From the NCBI GenBank assembly GCA_903960915.1, contig CAJCCO010000138.1, positions 1-64,000 of the forward strand: a DNA stretch of 64,000 nucleotides. The letters run 5' to 3'. Every line of letters begins with the position of its first letter. The stretch's first letter is position 1. The translations under genes and the position numbers were made by a program. The notes below the pieces were generated by a model. That model worked only from the letters and a program-made list of their open reading frames with translations. It searched no databases and had not been told where the DNA came from. Shown here in pieces: positions 22,990 through 50,344 of this stretch. This DNA is from an uncultured beta proteobacterium (GTDB lineage Bacteria > Pseudomonadota > Gammaproteobacteria > Burkholderiales > Burkholderiaceae_C).

Positions 22990-23006
22990 ACAGGGAAGAA
23001 AATCGC

Positions 23007-23420
23007 ATGGCAATCAGCTGGCTCAGCGCCCTCAAACTCGTTCCGTGGTCTGACGTCATCAGCAACGCGCCTCTGGTGGCCGAAGGCGCCAAAAAACTGT
23101 GGGGCGCGGTGGTCAAGCCCGGCACGCCGCCAGAATCCGACCTGGCGGCGGCGACTGCTACCGACAGTGAGATGCCTCAGATGGCGCAACTACAAGCCGA
23201 GGTGGCAGGCCTGCGCGGCGAGGTGAGCGACCTGCACCGCCAGATGGTGGACTCATCGGCGCTGATCAAGGCCCTGGCCGAGCAAAACGCCCAGTTGGTA
23301 GCCCAGGTGCAAAGCACCCGCGTGCGCCTGCGTTGGTTGGCAGCGTTGGCCGGTTTGGCCATTCTCTTGGCCGGCGCCAGTCTGTGGTACGGGCTGACGG
23401 CAGCCGTTGGCAGGGGCTGA
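23007..23420 (+). CDS. Small protein with coiled coil and C-terminal membrane anchor
   Basis: 137 residues. A short amphipathic N terminus (MAISWLSALKLVPWSDVISNAP) is followed in the middle by a predicted coiled coil (about residues 55-100, rich in Gln/Glu/Leu with MAQLQAEVAGLRGEVSDL). One membrane helix, LAALAGLAILLAGASLWYG, lies at the very C terminus. I do not recognise a named family, though similar proteins occur beside dedA in related genomes as far as I recall. It starts 17 bases after the dedA stop with AGGGAAG upstream, so it is likely co-transcribed. Tail-anchored topology is inferred. Confidence 0.75.
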   Translation: MAISWLSALKLVPWSDVISNAPLVAEGAKKLWGAVVKPGTPPESDLAAATATDSEMPQMAQLQAEVAGLRGEVSDLHRQMVDSSALIKALAEQNAQLVAQVQSTRVRLRWLAALAGLAILLAGASLWYGLTAAVGRG

Positions 23421-23426
23421 GGCCAG

Positions 23427-24458
23427 ATGAACGCCGCACCCCAGAGTGTTGAGCCCCAAGCCTTTCACTTTCTGGTGCTGCCTGAGTTTTCATTTCTGGG
23501 CCTGTTGTCGGCGCTGGAGCCCTTGCGCATTGCCAACCACTTCAAACCCAACAGCTACCGCTGGCACCTGGTCAGCACCGATGGCGGGCCGGTGGTGGCC
23601 ACCAATGGCATGTTGTTGCCCACGGAGGGCTCATTTTTGGAGGCGCAGGACGTCTCGACGGTGTTTGTGATCTCCGGTTTCAATACCTTGACCTACTACC
23701 GCGCCGACATGGGGCAGTGGCTGCGAAGGGTACAAAGCCAGGGCGCCACACTGGGCGCCATTGATGGCGGTGCCTTTGTGCTGGCCGAGGCGGATTTGCT
23801 GGCCTCTGAAGCCATTGCCCTGCATTGGGACTCGCACGCTTCTTTCATGGAGCGCTACCCGGCCACCCGGCTTGGCACCTCCTTGTTTGAAATTGGCCAG
23901 CGCTGCATCACCTGCGCCGGGGGCACGGCGTCCATTGACATGATGCTGGCCCTGATTGGCAAGCAGCACGGGCAGGCCCTGGCCACCCAAATCTCGGACT
24001 GGATCATTCTGGGACGCATTCGGCACCCCACGGACCACCAGCGGTTGGAAATTTCTTCGCGCTTTGGCCTGCACAACCCCAAGGCCATCGCGGCCGTCGA
24101 GTTGATGCAGGCGCACATTGAAGACCTGATTGCCATTGACGATTTGGCGCGCCGAGTGGCCATCACCCGGCGGCAACTTGAGCGCCTGTTCAGCGCCCAC
24201 TTGAAGTGCACCCCTTCGCAGTTTTATTTGCAAGTGCGGCTGGACCGGGCGCGTGAGTTGCTGCAGCAAACAGCGCTGAGCGTGACCGATGTCAGCGTGG
24301 CCTGCGGCTTTGGTTCGTCGTCGTATTTTTCACGCGCCTACCGCGCGCGCTTTAAGACCAGCCCCAAGGACGACCGGGTAGAAGACGCCCAGAACCGACA
24401 ACAGGTTCAAAAATTCAAGGCCACCGCAAACATCGGGAACACCGGAATACAGGGTTAA
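23427..24458 (+). CDS. GlxA-type AraC regulator (GbdR/CdhR-like)
   Basis: 343-residue regulator. Residues about 10-190 are a DJ-1/PfpI-like domain whose usual nucleophile region reads GAIDGGAFVLAEADLL, with Asp-Gly instead of Cys, so it is a sensor and not an enzyme. Residues about 220-320 are an AraC HTH pair (DDLARRVAITRRQLERLF and VSVACGFGSSSYFSRAYRARF). This architecture and the AIDGGAF variant resemble Pseudomonas GbdR, CdhR and ArgR, which sense betaines or amino acids. It converges (4-base gap) on the SDR gene that ends the catabolic operon and may regulate it (inference). Confidence 0.88.
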   Translation: MNAAPQSVEPQAFHFLVLPEFSFLGLLSALEPLRIANHFKPNSYRWHLVSTDGGPVVATNGMLLPTEGSFLEAQDVSTVFVISGFNTLTYYRADMGQWLRRVQSQGATLGAIDGGAFVLAEADLLASEAIALHWDSHASFMERYPATRLGTSLFEIGQRCITCAGGTASIDMMLALIGKQHGQALATQISDWIILGRIRHPTDHQRLEISSRFGLHNPKAIAAVELMQAHIEDLIAIDDLARRVAITRRQLERLFSAHLKCTPSQFYLQVRLDRARELLQQTALSVTDVSVACGFGSSSYFSRAYRARFKTSPKDDRVEDAQNRQQVQKFKATANIGNTGIQG

Positions 24459-24462
24459 CTGT

Positions 24463-25293
24463 TCAAAGGGTTTCGGTGTTGCCGTCCACGATCAGGTCTT
24501 GCCCCGAAATGCGGGCGCCTTTTTCTGAGGTGACGAACACAATCATGTCGGCTATGTCCTGCGCCAGGATAAAAGTTTTCAAGGATGCGGACTGGGCCAG
24601 AAAAGTGCGCACTTCGTCCTCGGACTGCCCGGTTTTTTTCGCCTCGGCGGCAATGACCCGGTCAATGCGCTCACCCGCCACCGAGCCTGGGCAGATGCAG
24701 TTGACGCGCACCCCGGCGGGCCCGAGTTCTTGCGCCAGGGTTTTGGTCAAGCCCCGAATGGCCCACTTGGCACTGGCATAGGGCGCGCGCCTTGGAAAGC
24801 CGTACAAACCTGCCGTGGACGCCATGTTGACGATCGACCCGCTGCCTTGCTTGCGCAGAATGCGCGCGGCCTGGCGGGCGCATAAAAATGCCGCATCGAG
24901 GTTGACCGCCAGGCACTGGCGCCAGTCTTGCAGGCTGATGTCTTCGATCAGCGCCGTAGGCCCAGCAATGCCCGCGTTGTTCACCAAGATGTCGAGGCCA
25001 CCCAGGGTTTGAAGCGCCACCTCAAACAGGCCGGCCACCTGGGCTTCGTCACTGACGTCGCAGACCATGCCCGCCATCAGCGGCTGCTCCTGGAGCGTGC
25101 GGGCAAGCTGTTCGGCGTTGACATCGCAAATGAAGACCTTGGCACCTGCGGCCAAAAAGCCCTGCGCCGTGGCCAGGCCAATGCCGCTGGCCGCCGCCGT
25201 GATGAGCACGCGCTGGTTGGTGTGGGTCAAGGCAGACGAGGCAGACGAGGCAGAAGTGGCGCCCGCTGCGGTGGGGTGGGTGGTGGAAGACAT
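24463..25293 (-). CDS. Short-chain dehydrogenase/reductase
   Basis: 276-residue classical SDR. Residues about 30-276 hold the NAD(P) motif TAAASGIGLA, the NNAG motif (LVNNAGIAG), the catalytic Ser in NMASTAGLYG and the YASAK catalytic Tyr/Lys pair. The first 28 residues are a Ser/Ala/Thr-rich tail containing a 9-base tandem repeat, probably unstructured. It is the last gene of the GMC-enolase-ALDH-SDR operon, 10 bases after the ALDH stop. The substrate is unknown; its place suggests oxidation of a hydroxyl in the same pathway. Confidence 0.87.
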   Translation of the reverse strand: MSSTTHPTAAGATSASSASSALTHTNQRVLITAAASGIGLATAQGFLAAGAKVFICDVNAEQLARTLQEQPLMAGMVCDVSDEAQVAGLFEVALQTLGGLDILVNNAGIAGPTALIEDISLQDWRQCLAVNLDAAFLCARQAARILRKQGSGSIVNMASTAGLYGFPRRAPYASAKWAIRGLTKTLAQELGPAGVRVNCICPGSVAGERIDRVIAAEAKKTGQSEDEVRTFLAQSASLKTFILAQDIADMIVFVTSEKGARISGQDLIVDGNTETL

Positions 25294-25303
25294 GGTTTGA
25301 TTT

Positions 25304-26800
25304 TTACACTTTGACGCTGATCGACTTGGTGGACAGGTAGGCCGCCAGGCCTTCCTGGCCTTTTTCGCGGCCATAGCCCGATTGCTTGTTGCCGCCAAAC
25401 GGCACGGACACGCCACCGGCCCAGTAGTCGTTGATGGTGACTTGCCCCGCATCGAGGTCGCGGGCCAGACGCAAGGCGCGGCTGATGTCCTGGGTGAAGA
25501 TGCCGGCGTACAACCCAAACGCGGTGCCGTTGGCCGCAGCCAGGGCTTCTTCGTCATCGTCCACCACTTGAACGGCCAGCACCGGGCCAAAAATTTCTTC
25601 CTGCACGCAGGGGTCGTTGTGGGGCAGGTCATCCAAAATGGTGGGGCGGTAAAACCAGCCGGTGTCCAGTGGGTTGTCGGCGCCCGAATGGCCCCCCACT
25701 GGAATGGCGGCACCACGTGCCCGAGCCGCATCAACGTGCCCGGCAATTTTTGCCAGCTGTTGACCGGAGTTGATGGCGCCCACATCGAGGTCGCGCAGAC
25801 CGTGGCCCACCCTGAGCAGGCTCGTTTTGCGCACCAGCGCCTCCAGCAAGGCGCTGTGGATACTGCGTTGCACCACCAAGCGCGAGCCGGCCGAACAGAT
25901 TTGCCCGGCGTTGGAGTAAATGGCCCACAGGGCGGCGTCTGCCGTGGTGTCAATATTGCAATCCGACAAGGCGATCAGCGGCGACTTGCCACCCAGCTCC
26001 AGCGTCAGGCTGGCCACGTGGGGTGCGGCCGACTGCGCCACCGTCACACCGCTTTGGACCGATCCGGTGAACGTGATGTGGCGCACCTTGGGGTGCTGCG
26101 CCAGGGCGGCGCCTACCACGGGCCCTAAGCCGGTGACGACATTGACCACGCCCGCAGGCAGCCCCGCCTTGGCCAGCAGTTGGCCCATCAGCAAGGCGGT
26201 GAAGGGGGTGGTTTCTGCCGGTTTGGCCACCACGGTGCAGCCGGCAGCCAATGCCGGTGCCACGCTGCGGGCAAAGGTGGAGGTGGGGTAGTTCCAGGGA
26301 ATGATGTGCGCGGTCACGCCGACGGGCTCGCGCAGGGTCCAGCTCATGTGCTGGGCATCGGTGGGCAGGGCGCGCCCCTCCAGCGTGCGGGCCACGCTGG
26401 CGTAGTAGGCAAAGAAGTTGGCGGCGCTGCGTAAATCACCGCGCGCCTCGGTCAGGGTTTTGCCAGAGTCGAGCGACTCAAAGAAGGCCAGTGTTTCTAG
26501 GTCCTCCAGCAGCAAGGCCGCCATGCGGTTCAACAGGTGACTGCGCTGCTCGGGGGTGGAGTGGCGCCAGTCTTTCAGGGCGGTGTTAGCCGCCTCTACC
26601 GCACGCGCCACATCCTGAGCCGTGCCAGCGCTGAAGCTGGCAAAGGCCCGGCCCAGCCCGGGGTCAAAGCTCTCCATCGCAGAGCCCGCTGAGTGGCAAA
26701 AAGCCCCGTTTATCCAGTGGCCTGTGGGCAGTTTGGACAAATCTGGCAGTTGCCCCTTGCTCAGGTAAGCCTGCGCAAACTGGCTGGCGCTTATCGTCAC
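25304..26800 (-). CDS. NAD(P)-dependent aldehyde dehydrogenase (BetB/PuuC-like)
   Basis: 498-residue aldehyde dehydrogenase converting an aldehyde to a carboxylic acid. NAD-binding segment IIPWNYPTSTFARSVAPALAAG, catalytic Glu in LELGGKSPLI and catalytic Cys in NAGQICSAGSR are intact. It ends with the usual YLSTKSISVKV. I chose the GTG at 26800, which overlaps the stop of the enolase-superfamily gene as GTGA, showing translational coupling. Substrate unknown; a quaternary-amine, sugar or other hydroxyl-derived aldehyde made by the upstream GMC enzyme is the natural guess. Confidence 0.9.
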   Translation of the reverse strand: MTISASQFAQAYLSKGQLPDLSKLPTGHWINGAFCHSAGSAMESFDPGLGRAFASFSAGTAQDVARAVEAANTALKDWRHSTPEQRSHLLNRMAALLLEDLETLAFFESLDSGKTLTEARGDLRSAANFFAYYASVARTLEGRALPTDAQHMSWTLREPVGVTAHIIPWNYPTSTFARSVAPALAAGCTVVAKPAETTPFTALLMGQLLAKAGLPAGVVNVVTGLGPVVGAALAQHPKVRHITFTGSVQSGVTVAQSAAPHVASLTLELGGKSPLIALSDCNIDTTADAALWAIYSNAGQICSAGSRLVVQRSIHSALLEALVRKTSLLRVGHGLRDLDVGAINSGQQLAKIAGHVDAARARGAAIPVGGHSGADNPLDTGWFYRPTILDDLPHNDPCVQEEIFGPVLAVQVVDDDEEALAAANGTAFGLYAGIFTQDISRALRLARDLDAGQVTINDYWAGGVSVPFGGNKQSGYGREKGQEGLAAYLSTKSISVKV

Positions 26801-27918
26801 GCCTTCACCTCGCTGGCCTGGTAGCTGGCGGTTTGCAGCCACGTGGGGTTCACCTCAACGCCCCAGCCGGGGCCGGCGGGAATGCTGGCCTTGCCGTCGG
26901 TGATGGCAAATGGATCGCCCAGGAACAGGTTTTCTTGCCACGGGTAGTAATCAGGCCCTTCAATGGAAAACTCCAGGTACTTGCCGGCATTGGGAATGGC
27001 GCCAAGCAAATGCATGGTGCAAATGGTGACCAGCGACAAATTGGCGCTGTGCGGGGTGCAGGGCAAGCCGGCCTGGGCCGCCATGGCGGCCACTTGCAGG
27101 GTGCGCGAGAGGCCGCCCATGTACATCACGTCGGGTTGCACAATGTCCACCGCGCGCATCTCGATCATGCGCGCCCAGGTAGACAGGTCCCAGTCCTGTT
27201 CGCCCCCGGTGACATCGAGCGTCAGCGCCTCGGTGACTTGCCGGCTTTGTTCCAGATGCCAGTAGGGGCAGGGCTCTTCAAAATGGCTGATGCCTTCGGC
27301 CTGCAGCAACTGGCCGACCTCAATGGCGCGTTTGACCGAGAAGCCGCTGTTGGCGTCCACCAGCTTGGCAATGCCATCGCCCAGCGCGCGCGCCACCACC
27401 GGAACGACTTCTTCGGTGCGGCCGGGCCATTCGTCCACATCGGCGCCGCACTCGGCGGCTACCCGCCATTTAAAGGCGTCAAACCCTTTTTCATCGCGCA
27501 GGCGCACCAGGCGCGCCGCTTCATCCTGCGGCGTGATGTCACGCTTCATGGACGAGGCGTAGGCGCGCAGCGGCCCGGCGGTGCCGCCCAGCAATTCGAC
27601 CACCGGCTTTTGCGCCAGCTTGCCGCGCAGATCCCACATAGCGGTGTCCAGTCCGGCCACGGCGCGGCAGCGGTAACTGCCTGGGTATTTGTGTTCGCGC
27701 CGCTCGATGATGTTGACCAGGGTGTCGATGTCCAGCGCGTCAGCGCCCAGCGCCCAGGGCGCAACCTGCCGGTGAAAAATGGTGGCGGTGATGTCGGCGT
27801 TGTAGGTGGAGGTCTGACCCCAGCCAACATGGCCGGTATCGGTGGTGAGTTTGACGAAACAGACAAACTCGTTGGCAAAGGTTTCTAGCTTGGCAATGTG
27901 GTGCGCGCTGTGCGTCAT
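26797..27918 (-). CDS. Mandelate racemase/muconate lactonizing enzyme (enolase superfamily)
   Basis: 373-residue enolase-superfamily enzyme. The capping domain comes first, then the barrel with KWRVA (KxR base motif), metal ligands in VDANSGF, EEPCPYW and TGGEQDW, then QPDVMYMGG and HSANLSL, which would supply the Asp-His dyad of the mandelate racemase subgroup. Members abstract the proton alpha to a carboxylate, mostly as sugar-acid dehydratases or epimerases. ATG at 27918 overlaps the GMC gene stop (ATGA). The reaction is not predictable from sequence alone. Confidence 0.88.
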   Translation of the reverse strand: MTHSAHHIAKLETFANEFVCFVKLTTDTGHVGWGQTSTYNADITATIFHRQVAPWALGADALDIDTLVNIIERREHKYPGSYRCRAVAGLDTAMWDLRGKLAQKPVVELLGGTAGPLRAYASSMKRDITPQDEAARLVRLRDEKGFDAFKWRVAAECGADVDEWPGRTEEVVPVVARALGDGIAKLVDANSGFSVKRAIEVGQLLQAEGISHFEEPCPYWHLEQSRQVTEALTLDVTGGEQDWDLSTWARMIEMRAVDIVQPDVMYMGGLSRTLQVAAMAAQAGLPCTPHSANLSLVTICTMHLLGAIPNAGKYLEFSIEGPDYYPWQENLFLGDPFAITDGKASIPAGPGWGVEVNPTWLQTASYQASEVKA

Positions 27919-29567
27919 GGTCTCGGGTCCTTGGGGTAAGTTTGCTGGATATAACGGGCCGCCTGCGCCGCCACCATCACCGTGGGGGCGTGGGTATTGG
28001 CTGAGGTGATGTTGGGAAAAATGGAGGCGTCCACCACGCGCAAGGCTTGCACGCCATGCACGCGCAATTGCGCATCGACCACGCCGCCCTGGTTGGCCGG
28101 CGCCATACGGCAGGTGCCACACGGGTGGTAGACGGTGCCACTGCGGGCCCGAAAGTCGTCCAAAATTTGCGCGTCACTGGCATTGGCCAGGTCAATCTCG
28201 GGTTGTCCCACGATGAGTTGCCGCATGGACGGTGTGCTGTGCAACTGGCCAATCAGCCGGGCACCGGCCAGCACCCCGGCGATGTCTTGCGGGGCGCTCA
28301 AATAATGGGGCCGAATGAGGGGGTCGTCCTGGGGCCGGGCGGAGGCAATCTCGATGTGTCCGGTGCTCAGCGGTCGGCAAGGGTTGAAGCCGATGATGAA
28401 GCCCGGGTAGGGGTCGGGTTTGAGCAACTGGCGCTTGCCCACTTGCTCGGTGGAATAACTCACCGGGGTGAAATACAGCTGCACATCGGGGCGGTCGAGT
28501 TGGGCCGAGCTTTTGACCATGCCCCCCATTTGGTTGACGCTCAAGCTCAAGGGGCCGGAGCGCAGCAGCACATAGCGCAGGCCCGCCGCCAAGCGGCCCG
28601 ACCAGCTACCCAGTACCCCGTTCAAGGTGGGTTGGGTGGCGCGGTAGGTGTAGTTGATGCCCAAATGGTCTTGCAAGCCGGCGCCCACAAAGGGGTTGTC
28701 ATGCACCACTGGCAGGCCGTGCTTTTGGAGCAGGGCTGCCGGCCCAATGCCCGAGAGTTGCAGCAACTTGGGTGAATTCACCGCCCCGGCGCACAGCAGC
28801 ACTTCCAGCCTGGCGCTGGCTTGCACTACCTGCCCGTTCACCTCGTATTCCACCCCGGTGGCCCGGCGGTCTTGCAGCAAGACGCGGTGAACCAGGGCAT
28901 GGGTTTGAAGCTTGACCTTGGGCCGGCGCAGCGCCGGCCTTAAAAACGCATCTGCCGATGAAAACCGCAAGCCCCTGTAAGTGTTGGTCTGGTAAGCCCC
29001 CACGCCCTCTGGCGCCGCTCCGTTCATGTCGCTGGTCAGTGGCAGGCCGGCCTCCTGGGCGCCGGCGATAAAAAAGCGTTTGATCGGGTGGTACTGAGGT
29101 TCCCGGTCTGATACATACAGGGCGCCCATGCCATCCAGGCCCGTGGCCGCCGACGCTTGAATAGAACCATCTGGGCGCACACGTTTTTCCAGGCGCGCAA
29201 AGACCGGTGCCACATCCTTCCAGGACCAACCCGGGTTGCCAGCCTGGTGCCAGTCGTCGTAGTCGTTGGGCAGGCCGCGGCAGTAGACCATCGCATTGAT
29301 GGAGCTGGAGCCCCCCAGCACCTTGCCACGCGGCCAGTAGCTGTTGCGTCCAGCCAAGCCGGGATCGGGCTGGGTAGAGAACTTCCAGTTCACACGCGCA
29401 TCGAAGAAAGTCTTGCCGTAGCCAATCGGGGTTTTGATCCAGAAGCGGCGCTCGTCCCCGCCGGCCTCCAGCAGCAGCACGGTTTTTTGACCATCTGCGC
29501 TGAGGGCATCGGCCAGCAGGCATCCGGCCGAGCCAGCGCCCACAATAATGAAGTCGAAAGTTTCCAA
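27915..29567 (-). CDS. GMC-family FAD oxidoreductase (choline dehydrogenase-like)
   Basis: 550-residue flavoprotein. FAD-binding FIIVGAGSAGCLLA at the N terminus, GMC signatures PRGKVLGGSSSINAMVYCRG and CAGAVNSPKLLQLSGIGP, and a C-terminal catalytic region YHPCGTCRMAP plus ITSANTHAPTVMV. It oxidises an alcohol to an aldehyde, and BetA (choline dehydrogenase) is the best-known relative. Likely start is TTG 29567 (LETFDFIIVG), with GGAGG 11 bases upstream; an ATG at 29615 would run through a perfect hairpin. It is the first gene of the coupled leftward operon. Confidence 0.9.
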   Translation of the reverse strand: METFDFIIVGAGSAGCLLADALSADGQKTVLLLEAGGDERRFWIKTPIGYGKTFFDARVNWKFSTQPDPGLAGRNSYWPRGKVLGGSSSINAMVYCRGLPNDYDDWHQAGNPGWSWKDVAPVFARLEKRVRPDGSIQASAATGLDGMGALYVSDREPQYHPIKRFFIAGAQEAGLPLTSDMNGAAPEGVGAYQTNTYRGLRFSSADAFLRPALRRPKVKLQTHALVHRVLLQDRRATGVEYEVNGQVVQASARLEVLLCAGAVNSPKLLQLSGIGPAALLQKHGLPVVHDNPFVGAGLQDHLGINYTYRATQPTLNGVLGSWSGRLAAGLRYVLLRSGPLSLSVNQMGGMVKSSAQLDRPDVQLYFTPVSYSTEQVGKRQLLKPDPYPGFIIGFNPCRPLSTGHIEIASARPQDDPLIRPHYLSAPQDIAGVLAGARLIGQLHSTPSMRQLIVGQPEIDLANASDAQILDDFRARSGTVYHPCGTCRMAPANQGGVVDAQLRVHGVQALRVVDASIFPNITSANTHAPTVMVAAQAARYIQQTYPKDPRP

Positions 29568-29592
29568 AGCCGTGGTTTCCTCCCCAAAAGAT

Positions 29593-29613
29593 GGCCGCCA
29601 AACGGTGGCGGCC
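29593..29613. promoter_or_regulatory. Perfect hairpin ahead of the GMC operon
   Basis: 8-bp arms GGCCGCCA and TGGCGGCC around a 5-base loop, in the leader of the GMC operon and within the 215-base gap shared with the divergent DmdA-like gene. On the leftward strand it is followed by ATCTTTT and then the GGAGG ribosome site. It could be an operator or an attenuator-like element. Confidence 0.5.
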
Positions 29614-29782
29614 AAGCCGGTTTGTCAGGCTCTGACCATAAGGCAATGCGCCCCAGGCAGTTGACCTGATGCGACGCGCGTCTTTCATGCCACGTCTTGT
29701 TTCACTAGGACATTCCCCAGCTAAAGAACTGGACGGCAGTGACTACAGTACAGCTACGACTGACGAACTGAAAGTATTCCCT

Positions 29783-30886
29783 ATGTTTGGTATCACCCCT
29801 TCTGCACGGCTACGGCCTTCCCCGTTCTACGAGGCCACCCTGACCGAGGGGGTCACGGCATTTACCACCTACAACCACATGCTAATGCCCACCAGCTTTG
29901 GCCATCCGGAGGCGGAGTACTGGCGTCTGATACAGGGCGTTTCTCAGTGGGACGTGGCGGTTGAACGTCAGGTGCAACTGGAGGGGCCGGACGCCGCCCG
30001 GTTGGCGCAAATTTTGTGCACGCGCGATTTGTCCAAATGCCAGGTAGGGCAGGGCAAGTACGTGCCGCTGTGCAACCATGAGGGTGTGCTGATCAACGAC
30101 CCGATTTTGCTGAAGCTCGACGACAACAAGTTCTGGTTGTCCATCGCCGACTCCAATATCTGGTTCTGGGCGCGCGCCATTGCGGCCGAGCGCGGGCTGC
30201 GGGTCAAGGTCAGCGAGCCCGATGTGTCGCCCCTGGCCGTGCAAGGCCCCAAGGCGGTGGAGGTCATCGCCGCCCTGTTTGGCGACTGGGTGCGAGACCT
30301 CAAGTACTTCTGGTTCAAGGAAACGTCGATCAGCGGCATTCCGGTGGTGTTGGCACGCTCGGGTTGGTCCAAGCAGGGTGGCTTTGAGATTTACCTGATG
30401 GACGGCGCGCAGGGCACCAAGCTGTGGAACCTGGTGCGCGAGGCCGGCAAGCCCTGGGACATAGGCCCGGGCAACCCCAGCTTTTGTGAGCGGGTGGAAA
30501 GCGGCCTGATCTCCTACGGTGGCGATACCGACGAGACTACCAACCCGTTTGAGGTGCGGCTGGACAAATACATTGACCTGGACGTGGCTGACGATGTGGT
30601 GGGTATTGGGGCCTTGCGCCAGATCAAGGCCAGCGGCGTGAAGCGCCAGCAATTGGGGGTGATGCTGGAAGGCGATCAACCCACGCAGCTGGGTTTTCAT
30701 TGGCACGGCATTTACCAGCACGGCCAGAAGGTAGGCAACTTGACCAACTGCGTCTGGTCGTACCGGCTGCAAAAAAACATCGGCTTTGGCCTGGTGGCCG
30801 CCACCTGCGCGGCAGGCGATGAGGTCACGGTACAGAAAGAGGGCCAGACCCTCAAGGCGCGTCTGACGACCCTGCCCTTTATTTGA
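29783..30886 (+). CDS. DmdA-family aminomethyltransferase-like protein (DMSP demethylase homologue)
   Basis: 367-residue GcvT-fold protein. It carries segments I recall from Ruegeria DmdA, the tetrahydrofolate-dependent dimethylsulfoniopropionate demethylase: TYNHMLMPT, WDVAVERQV, EPDVSPLAVQGP, VARSGWSKQGGFEIY and ERVESGLISYG. The length also matches DmdA (about 365). True DmdA transfers a methyl group from DMSP to tetrahydrofolate; whether this freshwater-type homologue acts on DMSP or on another methylated compound cannot be decided. ATG at 29783; the SD is weak. Divergent from the GMC-ALDH operon across 215 bases. Confidence 0.8.
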   Translation: MFGITPSARLRPSPFYEATLTEGVTAFTTYNHMLMPTSFGHPEAEYWRLIQGVSQWDVAVERQVQLEGPDAARLAQILCTRDLSKCQVGQGKYVPLCNHEGVLINDPILLKLDDNKFWLSIADSNIWFWARAIAAERGLRVKVSEPDVSPLAVQGPKAVEVIAALFGDWVRDLKYFWFKETSISGIPVVLARSGWSKQGGFEIYLMDGAQGTKLWNLVREAGKPWDIGPGNPSFCERVESGLISYGGDTDETTNPFEVRLDKYIDLDVADDVVGIGALRQIKASGVKRQQLGVMLEGDQPTQLGFHWHGIYQHGQKVGNLTNCVWSYRLQKNIGFGLVAATCAAGDEVTVQKEGQTLKARLTTLPFI

Positions 30887-30937
30887 AGGCGGCGCGGCCG
30901 AAGCGCCCACCGCATTACCGCCGCACCACCACCTCCG

Positions 30938-34029: not shown

Positions 34030-35238
34030 ATGACGCTGAATATCCCGGATTTTTGCCTTTCGCCCGACATTGAAAAGCAGGCCGCCGTGGAGCGCCTGGC
34101 CCGGCTGCGCCAAGTGCTGGCGGCCAACCACATAGGCGCTGCTATTTACTTTGATGCGGTCAACATCCGTTACGCCTGCGGTGTACGCAACATGCAAATC
34201 AACACCACGCGCAACCCGGGCCGCTACCTGTTTGTGCCGGTGTTTGGTCCGGTGGTGCTGTTTGAGTACATGAGTTGCGCGCACCTCGCTGAGGGCTACC
34301 CCACCGTGGACGAAGTGCGACCGGCCAAGGGCGTTCACCCGTTTTACTCGGGTGACCACCACGCCGAACACCTGGCCGCTTTTGTGCAGGATATTCAGGA
34401 CCTGATGGCGCAATGCGGTCTGCGCGGCGCCCGCCTTGGGGTGGAGCGCGCGCCGATTGACGTGGTGCCTGCGCTGATGCGTGCCGGCTTGACGGTGGTG
34501 GACGCCTCCATTTCGATCGACCGCGCCAAGTCCATCAAAACGCCGGCTGAACTGCAACTGGTGCGCGCCTCGGTGGCCGGCACGCAAGCAGCGGTGGCCT
34601 ACATGGAGCAGAACCTGCTGCCCGGGCGCACCGAAAACCAGGTGTTTGGCGATTTGCACCAGGCGCTGATTGCTGGCGGTGGCGAATACATTGAAACCCG
34701 GCTGTTCAACTCCGGGCACCGCACCAACCCCTGGTTTCAGGAAACGGGCAACAAGGTGATTCAGGCCGGTGAACTGGTGTGTCTGGACACCGATGCCATT
34801 GGCTGCCACGGCTACTACACCGACATGTCACGCACCTTTCTGGCGGGCGACGGTCCGGCCACGCCGGTTCAGCGTGAGCTCTACGGCCTGGCCTACGAGC
34901 AGTTGCAGCACAACATGGCGTTGCTGAAGGTGGGCCTGTCGTTCCGCGAGTTTGCCAACAAGACCTGGCCTATTCCGGACAAGTACGTGGACCACCGTTA
35001 CCTGTGCCCCATCCACGGCAACGGCATGACGGGGGAGTACCCCATCATTCCTTACCCGGACATTTTTCACCTGTGCGGCCAGGACGGTGAATTTGAAGCC
35101 AACATGACCGTCTGTGTGGAAAGCTTTGTGGGTGACCGCGATGGCGGCGAAGGCGTCAAGTTGGAAGAGCAGGTGCTGATCACGCCGCAAGGCGTGGAGC
35201 GGCTGACCACCTACCCCTACGAGTCACGCTTGTTGTGA
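34030..35238 (+). CDS. M24-family metalloprotein resembling the DMSP lyase DddP
   Basis: 402-residue creatinase/aminopeptidase P-fold protein. Metal ligands are readable as D253 and D255 (LDTDAIG), D265 (YTDMSRT), H329 (IHGNGM), E364 (VESF) and E379 (LEEQV). Their spacing (2, 10, 64, 35, 15) equals that of the ligands I recall for DddP (D295, D297, D307, H371, E406, E421). The position of the proposed DddP catalytic Asp377 is Gly335 here, so lyase activity is doubtful; a Xaa-Pro-peptidase-like or other hydrolase role is the alternative. It ends convergently over the LysR gene by 15 bases. Confidence 0.82.
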   Translation: MTLNIPDFCLSPDIEKQAAVERLARLRQVLAANHIGAAIYFDAVNIRYACGVRNMQINTTRNPGRYLFVPVFGPVVLFEYMSCAHLAEGYPTVDEVRPAKGVHPFYSGDHHAEHLAAFVQDIQDLMAQCGLRGARLGVERAPIDVVPALMRAGLTVVDASISIDRAKSIKTPAELQLVRASVAGTQAAVAYMEQNLLPGRTENQVFGDLHQALIAGGGEYIETRLFNSGHRTNPWFQETGNKVIQAGELVCLDTDAIGCHGYYTDMSRTFLAGDGPATPVQRELYGLAYEQLQHNMALLKVGLSFREFANKTWPIPDKYVDHRYLCPIHGNGMTGEYPIIPYPDIFHLCGQDGEFEANMTVCVESFVGDRDGGEGVKLEEQVLITPQGVERLTTYPYESRLL

Positions 35239-36165
35239 AATAAGCACTGCATCAGTCATGCCAGGGTCGTGCTGGGCAGCGTCTTGTGCCTGCACATTGA
35301 GCCATTGGGCAAAGGCCTTAACCGCAGGGTTGCGTACTGAACTGTCAGACAGGTGCAGTGTGTAGGCAAAACCAGTGGGAATGGACCGTTCACTCAAGGA
35401 AATGAGCCGTCCATCGGCGAGGTGTCCCAGCGCAAAGGGGCTTCTTCCCATCGCGGCGCCTAGCCCGCTTTCTGCGGCTTGCAAGGACAGGGCGCGGGTA
35501 TCCACATTGAGTATGCGCAGGGGACGCACGCCGGTGAGCTTGGCCTGGCTGAGCCAATCATCCCATTCTGTAGGACTGGTCTGGCAGTGGATGAGCGTGA
35601 AGTTGCCCAGTGTCCCCTCGTTTTCCAGCAAGCCAGTCTGTTCGGCGTACGATCTGGAGCAGACGGGGTAACACGACTCGCGAAACAATACGGTAGAGCT
35701 TGGTGCCAGGGCACTGATGGGTTCGTACCGTATTTCCATGTCCATCGGACCCGAGCGAAAACCCAGCGGCTCCAGCGAGGTCACGATGTTGACGTCCACC
35801 AAAGGGTGCTTGTCGTAGAAACTGCCCAGCCTTGGCATCAACCACAACACCGCCAGCGAGGGCACCAGGTTGATCGAGATGCGGGTGGTGTTGCGTATGG
35901 CCTCGGTGCGCGCCGTGGTGGAGGCAATCAGGTCCAGCGCTTGCGCCAAGACCAGCATGTAGTCCCGTCCCACGTCGGTGAGTTCCAGGCTGTTGTGGGT
36001 GCGAATAAACAGTTGCACGCCCAGGAATTGCTCCAGCGAACGCACCTGGTGGCTCACGGCGGAGACCGACAAGAAAAGCTCTTCGCCTGCCGCCCGTAAA
36101 TTACAGTGCCGGCCGGCCGCCTCGAAGGCGCGAATGGCAGCAAAGGGGGGAAGTCGTCTGGCCAA
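35224..36165 (-). CDS. LysR-type regulator (GcvA-like)
   Basis: 313-residue LysR regulator. The N-terminal winged HTH reads LPPFAAIRAFEAAGRHCNLRAA then SVSAVSHQVRSLEQFLG; a C-terminal periplasmic-binding-like effector domain follows. The RLPPFAAIRAFEAA opening is the GcvA subgroup pattern. I chose TTG 36165 because CGGAG lies about 6 bases upstream and the family start falls there. The neighbours are the AEC transporter (46 bases upstream, same strand) and the M24 gene (convergent), either of which may be a target. Confidence 0.88.
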   Translation of the reverse strand: MARRLPPFAAIRAFEAAGRHCNLRAAGEELFLSVSAVSHQVRSLEQFLGVQLFIRTHNSLELTDVGRDYMLVLAQALDLIASTTARTEAIRNTTRISINLVPSLAVLWLMPRLGSFYDKHPLVDVNIVTSLEPLGFRSGPMDMEIRYEPISALAPSSTVLFRESCYPVCSRSYAEQTGLLENEGTLGNFTLIHCQTSPTEWDDWLSQAKLTGVRPLRILNVDTRALSLQAAESGLGAAMGRSPFALGHLADGRLISLSERSIPTGFAYTLHLSDSSVRNPAVKAFAQWLNVQAQDAAQHDPGMTDAVLISQQA

Positions 36166-36211
36166 GGAATTCTCCGAAAAGGATGGGCAGTAGGATAAAC
36201 CGTAGCGGCGA

Positions 36212-37123
36212 TTACAAAAATCGGAGCACGCCCAATGCAAAAGGCAGGCTCAACATGCCCAAGCCCACCGACAGCGTGACCAGCGCGGCCACATAAGCGC
36301 CGTCATAGCCCATGCGTGCGGCCAGTACGTAGCAGCTGGAGGCCGTTGGGAGTGCTGAAAAAATAAGCAGAACGGTGGTTTGCAGGGGACTCAGATGAAA
36401 CAGCTGCGCCACCCCCAGTGCGACCAGGGGCAAGATGAAATGCCGAATCCCCAGCAAGGCCACTCCCAGGGTTTTACCCCGGTTTAGGGCGCTGAATTGC
36501 ATGCCGGCACCGGCGGACATCAAGCCCAAGGCCAGTGACGCAGCCCCAATGCGCGAGACAGAAGGCTCCAGCCACAGCGGTATCGACAGCCCCAGCAGAT
36601 TGGCGAGTAAACCAGAGGCGGTGCCAATGATCAGTGGGTTGCGCAGCAGCTCGCGCAAAAATCCGCGTTTCGCCTGGCGTGCCATGGGCCAGACCGCGGC
36701 CACGTTGTAAAGCGGCACACACACGCCAATCAGCACGGCGATCAACTGCAAACCGGCTGGGCCGGCCAAGCGGTCGGCCAGGGCCAAGCCAATAAAGGAG
36801 TTGAAGCGAAACGCCACCTGGGTGCTGGCGGCATGCAGGCGCTGCGGCATGTGCTGGCCCAGCCAGGGCCAATGCGGCAGCGAGTAGGCCAGCGCAATAC
36901 CTACCGCGCCCAGGCTCCAGCCCGCGCCAATCAGGCTGGAGGTGGTGCCCAGGTCCAGCGGGCTCTTCACAATGGACTGAAACAGCAGCACAGGAAACAA
37001 AAAGTAGTAGACCAGGCCCTCAATCGGCTCCCAGACCTTGCGGTCCAGCGCGGTGAAGCGGCAGACCAGATAGCCACACAGAATCAGGGAAAAGTCGGGG
37101 ACGAGGAGTTGGGCGTAATTCAC
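36212..37123 (-). CDS. AEC family transporter
   Basis: 303-residue membrane protein with about ten helices, of the auxin efflux carrier family that in bacteria moves dicarboxylates or amino acids. Landmarks are YFLFPVLLFQSIVKSPLDL in the first half and LFSALPTASSCYVLAARMGYDG, the conserved C-terminal segment. It starts with GTG 37123. It reads into the LysR gene 46 bases downstream. Substrate unknown. Confidence 0.87.
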   Translation of the reverse strand: MNYAQLLVPDFSLILCGYLVCRFTALDRKVWEPIEGLVYYFLFPVLLFQSIVKSPLDLGTTSSLIGAGWSLGAVGIALAYSLPHWPWLGQHMPQRLHAASTQVAFRFNSFIGLALADRLAGPAGLQLIAVLIGVCVPLYNVAAVWPMARQAKRGFLRELLRNPLIIGTASGLLANLLGLSIPLWLEPSVSRIGAASLALGLMSAGAGMQFSALNRGKTLGVALLGIRHFILPLVALGVAQLFHLSPLQTTVLLIFSALPTASSCYVLAARMGYDGAYVAALVTLSVGLGMLSLPFALGVLRFL

Positions 37124-37248: not shown

Positions 37249-38211
37249 ATGTTTCGTCACACACTCATTGCTGCTGGTCTGGTAGCTGTTGCGGGCAGCA
37301 CCTTGGCGCAGGGTTACCCCAACAAGGTCATCAGGCTGCAGGTGCCGTTTGCGCCTGGCGGCACCACCGACATCATCGCCCGCGTGATTGCCGAGCCGCT
37401 GGGCAAGGCCCTGGGCCAGACCGTGTTGATTGAAAACAAGGCTGGCGGCGGCGGCGTGGTGGGTGCCAATGAAACCGCCAAGGCCGCGCCCGATGGTTAT
37501 TCCCTCGGTATGGCCACCGTGTCCACCACGGCGGCCAATCCGGCGATCAACCCGAAGATGCCCTACAACGCGATGACCGATTTCACCCCCATCATCAACA
37601 TTGCGGCCACGCCCAATGTGATTGCGGTGCACCCTGGTTTTCCGGCCAAGGATCACAAAGGTTTCCTGGCTGAACTGAAGAAAAATCCGGGCAAGTATTC
37701 GTATTCTTCATCGGGTACCGGGGGCATTGGGCATTTGCAGATGGAGTTGTACAAAAACCTGAGCGGCACCTATATCACCCACATTCCTTACCGTGGTGCT
37801 GGCCCGGCGCTCAACGACACGGTGGCAGGCCAGGTGCCCATGACCTTTGACAACCTGCCTTCAGCATTGCCTTTCATCCAGAGCAACCGGCTGGTGCCTA
37901 TTGTGGTGGCAGCCCCGCAGCGTCTGGCGCAGCTGCCCCAGGTGCCTACGTTCAAAGAGGTGGGGCTGGAGCCGGTGAACCGCATGGCTTATTACGGCAT
38001 TTATGGCCCCAAGGGTATGCCGCGTGACATTGTGGACAAGATCAATGCCGGCGTGCGCAAGGCGCTGGAAGATCCGGCGGTGAGAAAGCGCATTGAGGAC
38101 ACCGGCTCAATCATCATTGCCAACACGCCAGAGCAGTTTGGCGAGCAGATCAAAGCCGAGTTTGAGGTGTACAAAAAAGTGGTGGACTCCGCCAAACTTA
38201 AACTCGATTGA
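37249..38211 (+). CDS. Bug-type tripartite tricarboxylate transporter binding protein
   Basis: 320-residue periplasmic solute-binding protein of the Bug/TctC family that is greatly expanded in Burkholderiales. Signal peptide is MFRHTLIAAGLVAVAGSTLAQ, cut before GYPNKVIRLQVPFAPGGTTD, the canonical mature start. Other landmarks are ENKAGGGGVVGA, HIPYRGAGPALNDTVAGQV and YYGIYGPKGMP. AGGAG precedes the ATG. No TctA/TctB membrane genes lie nearby, which is usual for orphan Bug genes. Ligand, probably a carboxylate, is unknown. Confidence 0.93.
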   Translation: MFRHTLIAAGLVAVAGSTLAQGYPNKVIRLQVPFAPGGTTDIIARVIAEPLGKALGQTVLIENKAGGGGVVGANETAKAAPDGYSLGMATVSTTAANPAINPKMPYNAMTDFTPIINIAATPNVIAVHPGFPAKDHKGFLAELKKNPGKYSYSSSGTGGIGHLQMELYKNLSGTYITHIPYRGAGPALNDTVAGQVPMTFDNLPSALPFIQSNRLVPIVVAAPQRLAQLPQVPTFKEVGLEPVNRMAYYGIYGPKGMPRDIVDKINAGVRKALEDPAVRKRIEDTGSIIIANTPEQFGEQIKAEFEVYKKVVDSAKLKLD

Positions 38212-47849: not shown

Positions 47850-48285
47850 CGTCAAAATAATCGATGCCCGAATGGCGGAGCAATTACCGTTCTACGCCAC
47901 CCCTGGCAGTGCCGGGCTAGACCTGCGGGCCTGTTTGCAAGAGCCGCTTACCCTGTCGCCCAATGCGTGGCAACTGGTGCCCACAGGCATTGCCATTTAC
48001 TTGAAAGACCCCAATTTTGCTGCCATCATCCTGCCGCGCTCAGGTTTGGGACACAAGCATGGCATTGTGCTGGGCAACCTGGTGGGTTTGATTGACAGCG
48101 ATTACCAGGGGCAACTGATGGTCAGTGCCTGGAACCGCAGTGACAAATCCTTCACGATTGAGCCGATGGAGCGTATTGCGCAACTCGTTGTTGTTCCCGT
48201 GGTTCAGGCGCAGTTCAACGTGGTGACTGAATTCCCGACCAGCCAGCGTGGCGAGGGCGGGTACGGTTCCACGGGCAAGTCCTGA
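47839..48285 (+). CDS. dut: dUTP diphosphatase
   Basis: 148-residue trimeric dUTPase that keeps uracil out of DNA and feeds dUMP to thymidylate synthesis. All five motifs can be seen: [38 protein letters not shown] and the C-terminal [11 protein letters not shown]. It overlaps the end of coaBC, suggesting coupled translation. Confidence 0.97.
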
Positions 48286-48286
48286 T

Positions 48287-48820
48287 TCAATGCAAGGTGC
48301 GGTCGCCGGATGTGCCCTCGGGCAAGGCCTGAATCTTGAAAAAACCAGTACCTGCTGAGCCAGCCTTTATTTCTTCTGGGGTCGCATCTCGGACTGACTC
48401 AATCGTCAGGTTCAATCGCAGGGCAATACCTGACAAGGGGTGGTTGCCGTCCAGCACGATGTGCTCAGGGTAAATGTCGGTGACAACATAAATGGCATCC
48501 TGCTTCGCGTCGGGGTTGCAACCGACTGGCAATGCGTTGCCCTCGAAGATCATGCCTTCTTCTATCTCGGCCGGGAACAGTTTTCGCGGTTCCAGCAGAA
48601 CCAATTGCTCATTGAAGTCACCAAAGCCCTGTTCAGGTTCAATTTGCAGCTCTACCTTGCCGCCGGCTTGATGCCCAAGAAGTGCCGCTTCAATCACGTC
48701 CAGTAAGTCAGCGCCGCCCACCAAAAATTCGACGGCTTCGTCGAGCACATCCAATTCTTCACCAAGGGTATCCTTGAGGGTCCAGGTCAGAGCAACGACA
48801 CAGGGTTGTTTGATTTCCAT
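48287..48820 (-). CDS. FKBP-type peptidyl-prolyl isomerase (SlyD-like)
   Basis: 177-residue SlyD/FKBP-fold protein: isomerase half-sites at DEAVEFLVGGADLLDVIEAALLG and GNHPLSGIALRLNLTIESVRDAT, with the insert-in-flap domain between (residues about 70-130). It lacks the His/Cys-rich metal tail of E. coli SlyD. Folding factor in the cytoplasm. It is convergent with dut (1-base gap) and divergent from the ribosomal oxygenase gene. Confidence 0.9.
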   Translation of the reverse strand: MEIKQPCVVALTWTLKDTLGEELDVLDEAVEFLVGGADLLDVIEAALLGHQAGGKVELQIEPEQGFGDFNEQLVLLEPRKLFPAEIEEGMIFEGNALPVGCNPDAKQDAIYVVTDIYPEHIVLDGNHPLSGIALRLNLTIESVRDATPEEIKAGSAGTGFFKIQALPEGTSGDRTLH

Positions 48821-48843
48821 ACGAGAATGTCCAGTGAGAGAAA

Positions 48844-48866
48844 GTGAAAAGTGAAAAAGTGAAAAA
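48844..48866. repeat. GTGAAAA-type short tandem repeat
   Basis: Three near-identical units (GTGAAAA, GTGAAAAA, GTGAAAAA) between the divergent starts of the FKBP and ribosomal oxygenase genes, in the latter's leader. Function unknown. Confidence 0.7.
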
Positions 48867-48894
48867 TGATGACACCAAAGAATGGGAGACCCAC

Positions 48895-50037
48895 ATGCAT
48901 GTGAATCAGCCTTTGCAATTGTTGGGCGGCATGACCCCCCAATTATTCATGAAGCGCCATTGGCAAAAGAAACCGCTGGTCATTCGGCAGGCTTTTCCTG
49001 GCTTTACCCCCTTGCTCAATCGGAGCGAACTTTTCACTTTAGCGGCCCAGCAAGAGGTTCAGTCCAGGCTGTTGATCCAAAACGCTGGCCGTGCAAAGCA
49101 AGGTTGGCAATTTAAACAAGGTCCGTTTGATAGGCGCGAACTGCCTGCGCTCAAGCGTCCGGGCTGGTCGCTTCTGGTTCAGGGCGTTGATTTGCACCGT
49201 GATTCGGTGCATGGGTTGATGAATCAATTTCGATTTATTCCCGATGGCCGTCTTGATGACCTGATGATCAGCTATGCCACCGATGGTGGGGGTGTGGGGC
49301 CGCACTTTGACAGCTACGACGTGTTCCTGTTGCAGGCACATGGTCGTCGGCGCTGGCGGATTGGGCGCCAGAAAGATCTGTCTTTGCAGGAGGGGATGCC
49401 ACTAAAAATATTGGCAAATTTTGAGCCCGAAGAGGAGTTTGTTCTGGAGCCGGGCGACATGTTGTATTTGCCGCCCAAATACGCTCACGATGGCATTGCG
49501 CTTGGCGAATGTATGACGTATTCCATTGGCTTCAGGTCGCCCAGCAGAGGGGAAATTGCGCAAGAATTGCTGCAGCGTATCGCTGATCAGGCGCAAGACA
49601 CCGCCGGCAGTACGCTCTACAAAGACCCGCGCCAGGAGGCTGTTGAGAATCCAGCAGAAATTCCCGCTGGCATGTTGTTTTTTGCCCAGGATGCGCTGGC
49701 ACGGGCCCTGAATGATCCCTTGATCATGGCGCGTGCTTTGGGTGAGTATTTGACGGAGCCCAAGGCGGATGTCTGGTTTGAGTCAATGGTTGCGTCAGCG
49801 CCAGAACACCCTGGTCCTTTACAACTGGACCGAAAGACCAAAATGATGTTTGATGCCTCGCACATCTTCATCAACGGCGAAAGCTTTTTGGCATCGGGCA
49901 AAGATGCAAAAATTATGCGCCAACTTGCCAACGACCGTGTCCTGGATGGTGGTGCATTCGACAAACTAACTGCACAAGCGCAAGAACTGCTGCTGGATTG
50001 GCAAGACGCAGGCTGGATTCAATGGGGTGCCGAATAA
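48895..50037 (+). CDS. Ribosomal protein oxygenase of the cupin/JmjC type (RoxA/YcfD-like)
   Basis: 380-residue 2-oxoglutarate/Fe(II) oxygenase. JmjC-like core: MTPQLFMKRHWQKKPLVIRQAF at the N terminus, iron ligands HFD in GVGPHFDSYDVFLLQ and the distal His in PPKYAHDGIAL. YcfD of E. coli hydroxylates an arginine of ribosomal protein uL16, and the layout here is the same, with a C-terminal dimerisation/winged-helix part. Start MHVNQPLQLLGGM at 48895 has GGGAG upstream; an in-frame ATG at 48844 lies in a repeat and is less likely. Confidence 0.88.
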   Translation: MHVNQPLQLLGGMTPQLFMKRHWQKKPLVIRQAFPGFTPLLNRSELFTLAAQQEVQSRLLIQNAGRAKQGWQFKQGPFDRRELPALKRPGWSLLVQGVDLHRDSVHGLMNQFRFIPDGRLDDLMISYATDGGGVGPHFDSYDVFLLQAHGRRRWRIGRQKDLSLQEGMPLKILANFEPEEEFVLEPGDMLYLPPKYAHDGIALGECMTYSIGFRSPSRGEIAQELLQRIADQAQDTAGSTLYKDPRQEAVENPAEIPAGMLFFAQDALARALNDPLIMARALGEYLTEPKADVWFESMVASAPEHPGPLQLDRKTKMMFDASHIFINGESFLASGKDAKIMRQLANDRVLDGGAFDKLTAQAQELLLDWQDAGWIQWGAE

Positions 50038-50080
50038 CCCTATGACTTTCAACCTGATAAAAAAGCCGCTTAAATCGTCT

Positions 50081-50086
50081 TATAAT
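50081..50086 (+). promoter_or_regulatory. Candidate -10 element for the small lipoprotein gene
   Basis: A perfect TATAAT about 105 bases upstream of the lipoprotein ATG. No good -35 lies at normal spacing, so it may need an activator. If used, the transcript would carry the inverted repeat and the palindrome listed separately. Confidence 0.35.
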
Positions 50087-50092
50087 TAGAAG

Positions 50093-50125
50093 CTAAGCAA
50101 AAATGCTCGAGTCAATTTTGCTTAG
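50093..50125. repeat. Inverted repeat in the lipoprotein leader
   Basis: Perfect 10-bp arms CTAAGCAAAA and TTTTGCTTAG separated by 13 bases, just after the TATAAT. Could be an operator or an RNA stem-loop in the leader. Confidence 0.7.
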
Positions 50126-50147
50126 TCTTGGCAGATCATCTGCTTTG

Positions 50148-50165
50148 ACAATTTCCGGAAATTGT
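50148..50165. promoter_or_regulatory. Perfect 18-bp palindrome, candidate operator
   Basis: ACAATTTCCGGAAATTGT, fully symmetric, 26 bases before the ATG of the small lipoprotein gene. It overlaps a consensus -35 hexamer TTGACA (50145-50150). A dimeric regulator bound here would block that hexamer. Confidence 0.6.
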
Positions 50166-50191
50166 TTCGTTAACTTACTAGGTATATACAA

Positions 50192-50326: not shown

Positions 50327-50344
50327 TCAGTTCACTACTGATTG

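Follow-up and report, generated by a model that had tools for sequence, protein, structure and literature searches.

An accessory gene cassette pairing an orphan enolase-superfamily enzyme with a DmdA-like demethylase, and its possible role in the catabolism of methylated onium compounds

Introduction

The choline/betaine system of BetA, BetB and GbdR combines a GMC enzyme, an aldehyde dehydrogenase (ALDH) and a GATase1-AraC regulator, the same superfamilies that occur together in the window, by which we mean the whole stretch of 64,000 nucleotides analysed here, from an uncultured beta proteobacterium. DmdA, as represented by the P. ubique protein (3tfh), has its GcvT fold in common with a further gene product of the same block, at an identity of ~40%. 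For the enolase-superfamily enzyme of this block the nearest solved structures are 3t8q, 3t9p, 3tcs and 3u4f, which belong to its own family and from which no difference was found; their entry titles go no further than superfamily-type designations, for example 'mandelate racemase/muconate lactonizing enzyme family protein' and 'putative racemase', and no paper on them was recognised in the open-licence literature by title and abstract start. The same holds, within the same scope, for papers dealing with the gene set or the demethylase clade described below.

Results and discussion

The block comprises six intact genes with no internal stops, encoding a regulator, an SDR, an ALDH, an enolase-superfamily enzyme, a GMC enzyme and a divergent DmdA-like demethylase. 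These and the associated features are as follows.

22990..30937, no strand: accessory interval dedA-amiC, from comparison with same-genus genomes
23427..24458, + strand: GlxA-family regulator, GbdR/CdhR-like, AraC-type HTH and DJ-1/PfpI (NF052371, PF12833, PF01965)
24463..25293, - strand: SDR oxidoreductase, last operon gene (PF13561/PF00106, YASAK motif)
25304..26800, - strand: aldehyde dehydrogenase, BADH/aminobutyraldehyde-DH-like, GTG start (PF00171, 528 bits; Cys and Glu motifs)
26797..27918, - strand: enolase-superfamily enzyme, mandelate racemase group, ATG start (PF13378/PF02746)
27915..29567, - strand: GMC flavin oxidoreductase, first operon gene, TTG start (PF00732/PF05199; GAGSAG, HPCGTCRM)
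29568..29782, no strand: 215-base intergenic region separating the GMC gene from the divergent DmdA-like gene
29783..30886, + strand: DmdA-like demethylase with GcvT fold, from a sister clade to DmdA, ATG start
34030..35238, + strand: DddP-like gene with M24 creatinase fold, perhaps a second piece (DddP model 306 bits)

The preliminary description had joined the four leftward genes into one unit, and its coordinates and joins proved exact to the base: GMC and enolase overlap by ATGA, enolase and ALDH by GTGA, and ALDH and SDR are separated by 10 bases, which bears out an operon-like arrangement. The divergence of the DmdA-family gene from the GMC gene across 215 bases, and the placing of a regulator (GbdR/CdhR-like by family scan) at the other end of the block, were likewise confirmed. 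The TTG start of the GMC gene has GGGGAGGAAA upstream, and ATG 29783 is supported as the start of the DmdA-like gene by the length of its homologues, most of the 120 listed being 367 aa long. The motifs of the GMC, ALDH, SDR and enolase families are all present in the window proteins.

Scans against Pfam-type domains and NCBIfam equivalog models with curated cut-offs agree with the family names first given to these genes; the specific names BetA and DmdA did not survive, both proteins falling below the curated cut-offs. The GMC protein scores 395.4 bits against the 732.1 required by TIGR01810 and 492.1 against the 605 of PRK02106, and the corresponding values are 439.9 versus 668.6 bits for the ALDH (BetB, TIGR01804) and 321 versus 480 bits for the regulator (GbdR, NF052371). 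The window operon differs further from the choline/betaine system in adding an enolase and an SDR.

In two same-genus genomes, G012 and G007, the aligned ends of dedA and amiC lie 20 and 142 bases apart respectively, and both genomes are without the enolase family at E<=1e-80. These are two of eight same-genus stretches around amiC; in two others the gap is filled by 1.1 and 2.0 kb of other sequence, and in the remaining four dedA was not found beside amiC within the stretch examined. The near-empty interval in G012 and G007 identifies the six-gene block as an accessory, mobile-looking cassette. Together with the recurrence of its parts in other lineages, it led us to reject the view that these genes are chance neighbours.

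The enolase belongs to the mandelate racemase group of its superfamily, with MR_MLE domains, the D/E/E metal ligands and a His-Asp dyad, and to a closely knit family (mean column identity 76% over 32 aligned sequences), orphan in function despite its solved structures and found across freshwater and marine Proteobacteria. Residues D188/E214/E240, D263, H290 and K150xR152 are invariant in the family alignment, their roles being assigned by motif spacing and by the numbering of mandelate racemase. The second base of the KxK motif of that enzyme (Lys166, from a structure-entry title) has no counterpart here, its place, as judged from motif spacing, being taken by R152 in 32/32 aligned sequences. 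Because this arginine is invariant where mandelate racemase has its Lys166 base, a one-base elimination would be favoured over a two-base racemisation, and a mandelate-type racemase function is disfavoured.

The main rival to the reading we prefer is plain hydroxy-acid or sugar-acid catabolism, in which GMC and ALDH would act on a polyol or sugar to give an acid, the enolase would dehydrate this acid and the SDR would finish, the demethylase serving a separate use within the same cassette. The closest named NCBIfam models of the enolase are indeed the gluconate/galactonate and arabinonate dehydratases, and structural comparison beyond its own family brings up sugar-acid dehydratases and cycloisomerases among others; yet the named acid-sugar dehydratase models give only 129.9, 126.2 and 124.1 bits against cut-offs of 750, 311 and 650, and identity to the galactonate, talarate/galactarate and galactarolactone enzymes is <=29%. 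GMC-enolase-ALDH operons lacking an adjoining demethylase exist (four loci), and the SDR finds its best plasmid homologue (53%) in Mesorhizobium, next to another SDR and an SMP-30/gluconolactonase gene. Against this, inspection of the window operon showed neither a lactonase nor an aldolase or FAH gene, and the enolase family is repeatedly accompanied by the demethylase clade and by other genes for methyl removal. We consider the sugar-acid explanation unlikely, if a real contender.

The DmdA-like protein scores 381.9 bits with the DmdA model (NF009133/PRK12486, cut-off 410 bits) and two orthologues score 377.4 and 365.7 bits, so that 3/3 clade members tested fall short, whereas DmdA controls from two other loci (581.9 and 563.8 bits) and a protein on contig C123 of the same genome (573 bits) exceed it. 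Since clade members lie under the cut-off and the same genome holds a protein above it, the window demethylase is, judged by sequence, probably not DmdA proper and is placed in a separate sister clade (100/99); the DmdA-like gene was accordingly set aside as the named DMSP demethylase of the organism in favour of the C123 protein. The Trp, Glu and Tyr of the DmdA DMSP/folate site, with roles as given in an excerpt of PMC7487153 and mapped by offset, are kept in RSGWSKQGGFEIY. The Trp is a Tyr in the three above-cut-off DmdA rows aligned and therefore does not discriminate DmdA from the clade. The predicted structure is of modest confidence (mean pLDDT 73), and matches to LigM/DesA-type O-demethylation are weak (36 and 49 bits).

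Elsewhere the clade is found in settings of the dmd type: in Marivivens a member heads an AMP-ligase/acyl-CoA dehydrogenase/dmdD operon (dmdBCD-type), another adjoins an acyl-CoA dehydrogenase and a third a DmdD-type hydratase and an SDR, and O-acetylhomoserine-sulfhydrylase-type genes lie within two genes of the clade in six loci, one of them scanned. Several clade loci (for example L142, L144, L152 and L157) are without the expected partners within a few genes. Of the genes beside the clade, 12/116 resemble enolase neighbours, versus 5/132 of those further off (p 0.047), and a strong general rise was set aside as weakly supported by these counts.

Whether the DmdA-like gene is kept with the operon, the test set by the preliminary description, receives a mixed answer that is on balance positive. 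At E<=1e-150, the threshold applied to the phylum sample, the clade is present in 21/79 enolase-family genomes versus 0/397 other genomes of that sample, taken irrespective of their enolase content (Fisher 3.5e-18, uncorrected for kinship and habitat). At E<=1e-120 it is present in 23/79 and absent from 56/79, one of the 80 enolase genomes (L066) having been left out. The 80 loci were the closest among 586 relatives, which biases the sample to close kin. Among 80 genomes of relatives, taken as contained in a set of 198, the clade occurs in 2/4 enolase carriers (1/3 when the organism's own genome is excluded) versus 0/76. In the genus-mate G016 the demethylase lies beside SDR and GMC orthologues, with the enolase on another contig, and in three Rhodobacterales loci (L037, L050 and L065/L154) the enolase gene lies ~4 to 11 kb from a member of the clade; among the loci examined, only these three and the window have the two near each other. 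Demethylase-free operons count on the negative side.

Among the other parts, GMC-enolase-ALDH recurs in Pseudomonas, Phaeobacter and others. A GMC gene lies <=1.5 kb from the enolase in 11/80 loci by HMM, with none at 1.5-10 kb, and near it in 12/80 by tblastn; an ALDH follows the enolase in six loci. SDR homologues of 73-74% directly precede the enolase in six loci, and in L007 one of 70% is within 3 kb of it, with a regulator homologue (61%) between the SDR and GMC-enolase homologues; one of 68% stands beside the DmdA-like gene in two loci. Gene calls in the relatives' loci come from a codon-usage caller, with approximate starts and some artefacts.

The enolase loci are also enriched for other methyl-removing genes. 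GCV_T genes number 18 in 35 loci versus 2.5 expected, a comparison of local HMM with PF01571 counts (132.7 Mb in total, 463 matches, summed by hand). MTTB occurs in 8/80 and homocysteine S-methyltransferase in 7/80 loci by HMM. The neighbour HMMs were seeded from genes near the enolase, and therefore show distance decay rather than independent discovery, and loci L027-L036 are related and non-independent. Where transporters were annotated next to the enolase, they belong to the MFS or to ABC systems of peptide or polyamine type, with no BCCT or ProU among them.

Some neighbours would suit a second alternative, in which the enolase would be a lyase of onium propionates, releasing acrylate together with DMS from DMSP or with trimethylamine from beta-alanine betaine. 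GMC, SDR and ALDH would then take care of 3-hydroxypropionate and malonate semialdehyde by oxidation, and demethylation by the DmdA-like enzyme would form a competing branch. AcuI-type acrylyl-CoA reductase genes lie within three genes of the enolase in six loci. Three of these were scanned: the AcuI cut-off of 440 is passed in L002 (443) and L009 (441.8), and L025 (423) falls below it; but AcuI is a general enzyme. DddP-like homologues (39% and 43%) directly follow the enolase in two loci, scoring 393 and 468 bits against a cut-off of 600, and the window's own gene at 34030 reaches 306.3 bits with the same model (NF043017); its standing as a possible second piece draws on these homologues and on AEC-permease and queG genes lying 22-231 bases apart in three other loci. 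The R. pomeroyi GMC homologue (54%) adjoins malonyl-CoA synthase, and an excerpt of PMC4744692 places DddA, which dehydrogenates 3-hydroxypropionate in the DMSP route, among the GMC enzymes. Yet DMSP genes may cluster nearby by chance in Rhodobacterales, and the explanation does not account for loci that contain MTTB, GS-like or sulfonate genes; we regard it as improbable. Its boldest form, a Mg-dependent lyase for DMSP or its N analogue that would found a new enolase-type class of DMSP/betaine lyases beside a second DMSP demethylase lineage in freshwater bacteria, is a slim prospect.

The SDR might suit another substrate, a carnitine-like beta-hydroxy betaine, for which it would serve as a D-carnitine-type 3-dehydrogenase with the enolase dehydrating or epimerising the hydroxy acid. 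A homologue of 50% identity in Phaeobacter sp. G2 belongs to an operon that includes carnitine 3-dehydrogenase and a GlxA regulator, and the same plasmid bears a DmdA-like gene (51%) as well as a member of the MTTB family. The window SDR reaches 209 bits with the 3-hydroxybutyrate dehydrogenase model (cut-off 258). The cassette has neither carnitine 3-dehydrogenase nor cleavage enzyme, carnitine would make GMC and ALDH unnecessary, and the closer Mesorhizobium homologue sits in a sugar-type neighbourhood, all of which render this explanation highly doubtful.

The reading we prefer, to which we give an even chance, is that the accessory cassette serves to break down a small onium compound bearing methyl groups, a sulfonium or quaternary ammonium of the DMSP/betaine type. 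The regulator would turn the cassette genes on, the DmdA-like enzyme would pass one methyl group to tetrahydrofolate, and the enolase would bind the substrate carboxylate to Mg, its His290-Asp263 dyad taking the alpha proton so that the beta group is expelled; GMC oxidase and ALDH may convert a primary alcohol to the acid, and the SDR may oxidise or reduce a hydroxy/keto intermediate. The clade co-occurrence, the GCV_T, MTTB and homocysteine S-methyltransferase neighbours, the dmd-type clade loci, the SDR homologue of the carnitine operon and R152 suggest this reading; the many enolase genomes without the clade, rare proximity, partner-free clade loci, the Mesorhizobium context, the transporter types and the modest neighbour counts suggest otherwise. 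The earlier proposal of a route for an unassigned onium compound is upheld as plausible, its DmdA-family partner co-occurring with the enolase family. A search of the open-licence literature yielded nothing of apparent relevance to the idea that the substrate is the head group of a betaine lipid.

Linking a functionally orphan enolase family to methyl-removing genes narrows its list of substrates from all sugar acids to a few onium compounds, and Phaeobacter inhibens DSM 17395 offers a cultured host with the three-gene operon PGA1_RS18235-18245. If the preferred reading is true, the cassette would represent an additional catabolic route for methylated osmolytes, and the sister clade of DmdA would be missed by surveys relying on the curated DmdA cut-off.

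Organization and accessory nature of the cassette

The six-gene block is an accessory cassette of a genome of 3.72 Mb in 146 contigs, the window being contig C138. All six genes are intact, and a small ORF accompanies them:

23007-23420, small ORF of 137 aa within the dedA-amiC interval
23427-24458, convergent with the SDR gene, GlxA-type regulator (AraC/DJ-1 domains)
24463-25293, leftward, SDR (adh_short domain)
25304-26800, leftward, ALDH (Aldedh domain)
26797-27918, leftward, enolase-superfamily enzyme (MR_MLE domain)
27915-29567, leftward, GMC oxidase (GMC_oxred domain)
29783-30886, divergent from the GMC gene across 215 bases, DmdA-like demethylase (GCV_T domain)

The geometry reported in the preliminary description is borne out by the sequence, the GMC-enolase-ALDH-SDR junctions being in order ATGA, GTGA and a 10-base gap, with the 215-base divergence at one end and the regulator at the other. 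Its family names hold at the level of domains, but BetA, GbdR and DmdA fall below curated cut-offs; in family scans the cassette proteins score under every curated cut-off for BetA, BetB, GbdR, DmdA and named sugar-acid dehydratases, and the SDR passes only a general FabG-type subfamily model.

The flanking genes dedA and amiC enclose 7.9 kb in the window, holding the cassette and the 137-aa ORF. Between aligned ends they lie 20 and 142 bases apart in the genus-mates G012 and G007, from both of which the enolase family is absent at E<=1e-80. Another two genus-mates have different sequence at this site, 1.1 kb in one and 2.0 kb in the other; in four more, dedA was not found next to amiC within the stretch examined. 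A second accessory insertion (34030-36240), a DddP-like M24 gene with a LysR gene, lies between queG and an AEC-type permease gene, which are separated by 22-231 bases in L187, L188 and L191 and by 3.0 kb of other sequence in L185; in L057 and L062 the gene immediately downstream of the enolase gene is an M24 homologue (39% and 43%).

Elsewhere in the window, a putative orphan tricarboxylate-type (Bug) substrate-binding protein, named from reading the sequence, is encoded at 37303-38211, near the cassette and outside it; G+C is 0.51-0.55 at 48001-56000 versus about 0.60-0.67 at 4-40 kb; and at 59813-64000 a LysR gene precedes genes that, by names read off the sequence, resemble late protocatechuate/gallate 4,5-cleavage steps.

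Neighbourhoods of the enolase family

Among the loci of the nearest 80 of 586 enolase relatives, GMC genes occur within 1.5 kb of the enolase gene in 11 and at 1.5-10 kb in none. In bins of 0-1.5, 1.5-3, 3-6 and 6-10 kb (226, 202, 345 and 381 kb sampled), ALDH matches number 9, 1, 3 and 0 and SDR matches 17, 2, 10 and 1. The GMC-enolase-ALDH order recurs in L033, L056, L076 and Phaeobacter inhibens DSM 17395, and in G029 it is split into two halves, each at a contig end. In Shinella the ALDH gene adjoins the enolase gene and the GMC gene is one gene removed, and L007 groups SDR, regulator, GMC and enolase. Glutamine-synthetase-like genes (L017, L038, L042, L046, L047), xsc with DMSO-reductase-type genes (L037 and kin) and MFS transporters beside some enolase genes have no obvious fit.

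Methyl-removing genes are also found here: MTTB in 8/80 loci, homocysteine S-methyltransferase in 7/80 and GCV_T in 17/80. In 35 enolase loci, several of them close kin, 18 GCV_T genes were observed against 2.5 expected from genome density (463 genes in about 132.7 Mb).

In L026, L030, L037, L040, L049 and L053 the enolase and peptide-type ABC transporter genes lie near a whole or partial molybdopterin DMSO-reductase-type complex; L037 also has xsc, and L030, L040 and L049 each have a histidinol-dehydrogenase-like gene. This arrangement may represent sulfite dehydrogenase and sulfonate catabolism. The window's own genome has a second enolase-family copy (L099, G000:C86:20500-33971; 65%, one in-frame TAG) near ALDH, binding-protein-like, GMC-like and DAO-type oxidase genes. 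It also carries a cluster (L162, G000:C61:58500-78000) with an MTTB-family gene (PF06253), an FAD-plus-GCV_T protein and, by names read off the sequence, HisD-like, D-cysteine-desulfhydrase-like, Asp/Glu-racemase-like and sarcosine-oxidase-like genes, which looks like a putative route for breaking down a different N-methylated substrate, perhaps a sulfonate.

The demethylase clade

Against the DmdA model (cut-off 410), the demethylases of the window, L037 and L050 score below (382, 377 and 366), and those of L030, L054 and contig C123 of the same genome score above (582, 564 and 573); the C123 protein is encoded at 2674-3789 of L100 (G000:C123:1-12000). The tree sets the clade apart from the latter three with support 100/99 and places the window protein beside that of the genus-mate G016 (95/89). 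By raw counts, uncorrected for kinship or habitat, the clade occurs in 3/198 relatives at E<=1e-110 (own genome counted), at E<=1e-150 in the own genome alone among 399 of the order and likewise among 398 of the phylum, and in 23/79 enolase-family genomes at E<=1e-120 (21/79 at E<=1e-150).

The clade member adjoins SDR and GMC orthologues in G016 and the SDR orthologue in G114; in L150 its neighbours are an SDR and a DmdD-type hydratase, and in L143 it adjoins an acyl-CoA dehydrogenase; in Marivivens it is the first gene of an AMP-ligase/acyl-CoA dehydrogenase/dmdD operon. O-acetylhomoserine-sulfhydrylase-type genes, assigned by scan in L120 and by clustering in L143, L147, L148, L151 and L153, lie at most two genes away, the L153 demethylase being a 55% relative and not a close clade member. 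Genes for methylenetetrahydrofolate reductase, methyltetrahydrofolate methyltransferase and a RACo-type protein accompany the clade in L120 (scanned), L147, L148 and L151; none of these partner genes is close to the clade member in, for example, L142, L144, L152 and L157.

The enolase gene and a clade member are found near each other in L037, L050 and L065/L154; in L025, L027, L028 and L034 their contigs are equal in length, and the two genes probably lie on one contig, 24-41 kb apart. The searches list the enolase P0022 and the demethylase P0196 each with a Rhodoferax contig of 13,126 bases, which suggests that the two share one contig. Of the genes no more than three positions from a clade member, 12/116 resemble neighbours of the enolase in other genomes, versus 5/132 of those further off (p 0.047).

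Proposed route

AcuI-type and DddP-like genes by some enolases and dmd-type genes by some demethylases point to DMSP-type compounds, and MTTB and dimethylglycine-dehydrogenase-type genes to quaternary amines. Homologues of the SDR sit in a Phaeobacter carnitine operon (50%) and next to an SMP-30/gluconolactonase gene (the best plasmid homologue, 53%). A third (48%) adjoins genes for a class II aldolase and aconitase-X and has genes for a glycine betaine transporter in its vicinity.

Every enzyme superfamily of the cassette is already known; as far as our searches of literature and family models show, the gene combination, the demethylase sister clade and the orphan enolase family have no described function. 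The earlier proposal of a catabolic block for a methylated hydroxy-acid or onium compound is partly supported. A methylated onium acid, or an alcohol leading to one, would enter through a carrier; the GMC oxidase and ALDH would form an acid or convert one, and removal of an alpha proton and a beta group would fall to the enolase-family enzyme. The SDR would act on an intermediate with a hydroxy or keto group, while the DmdA-like enzyme would hand a methyl group to tetrahydrofolate. Such a route, whose substrate and order of steps we infer, is most likely how the cassette works.
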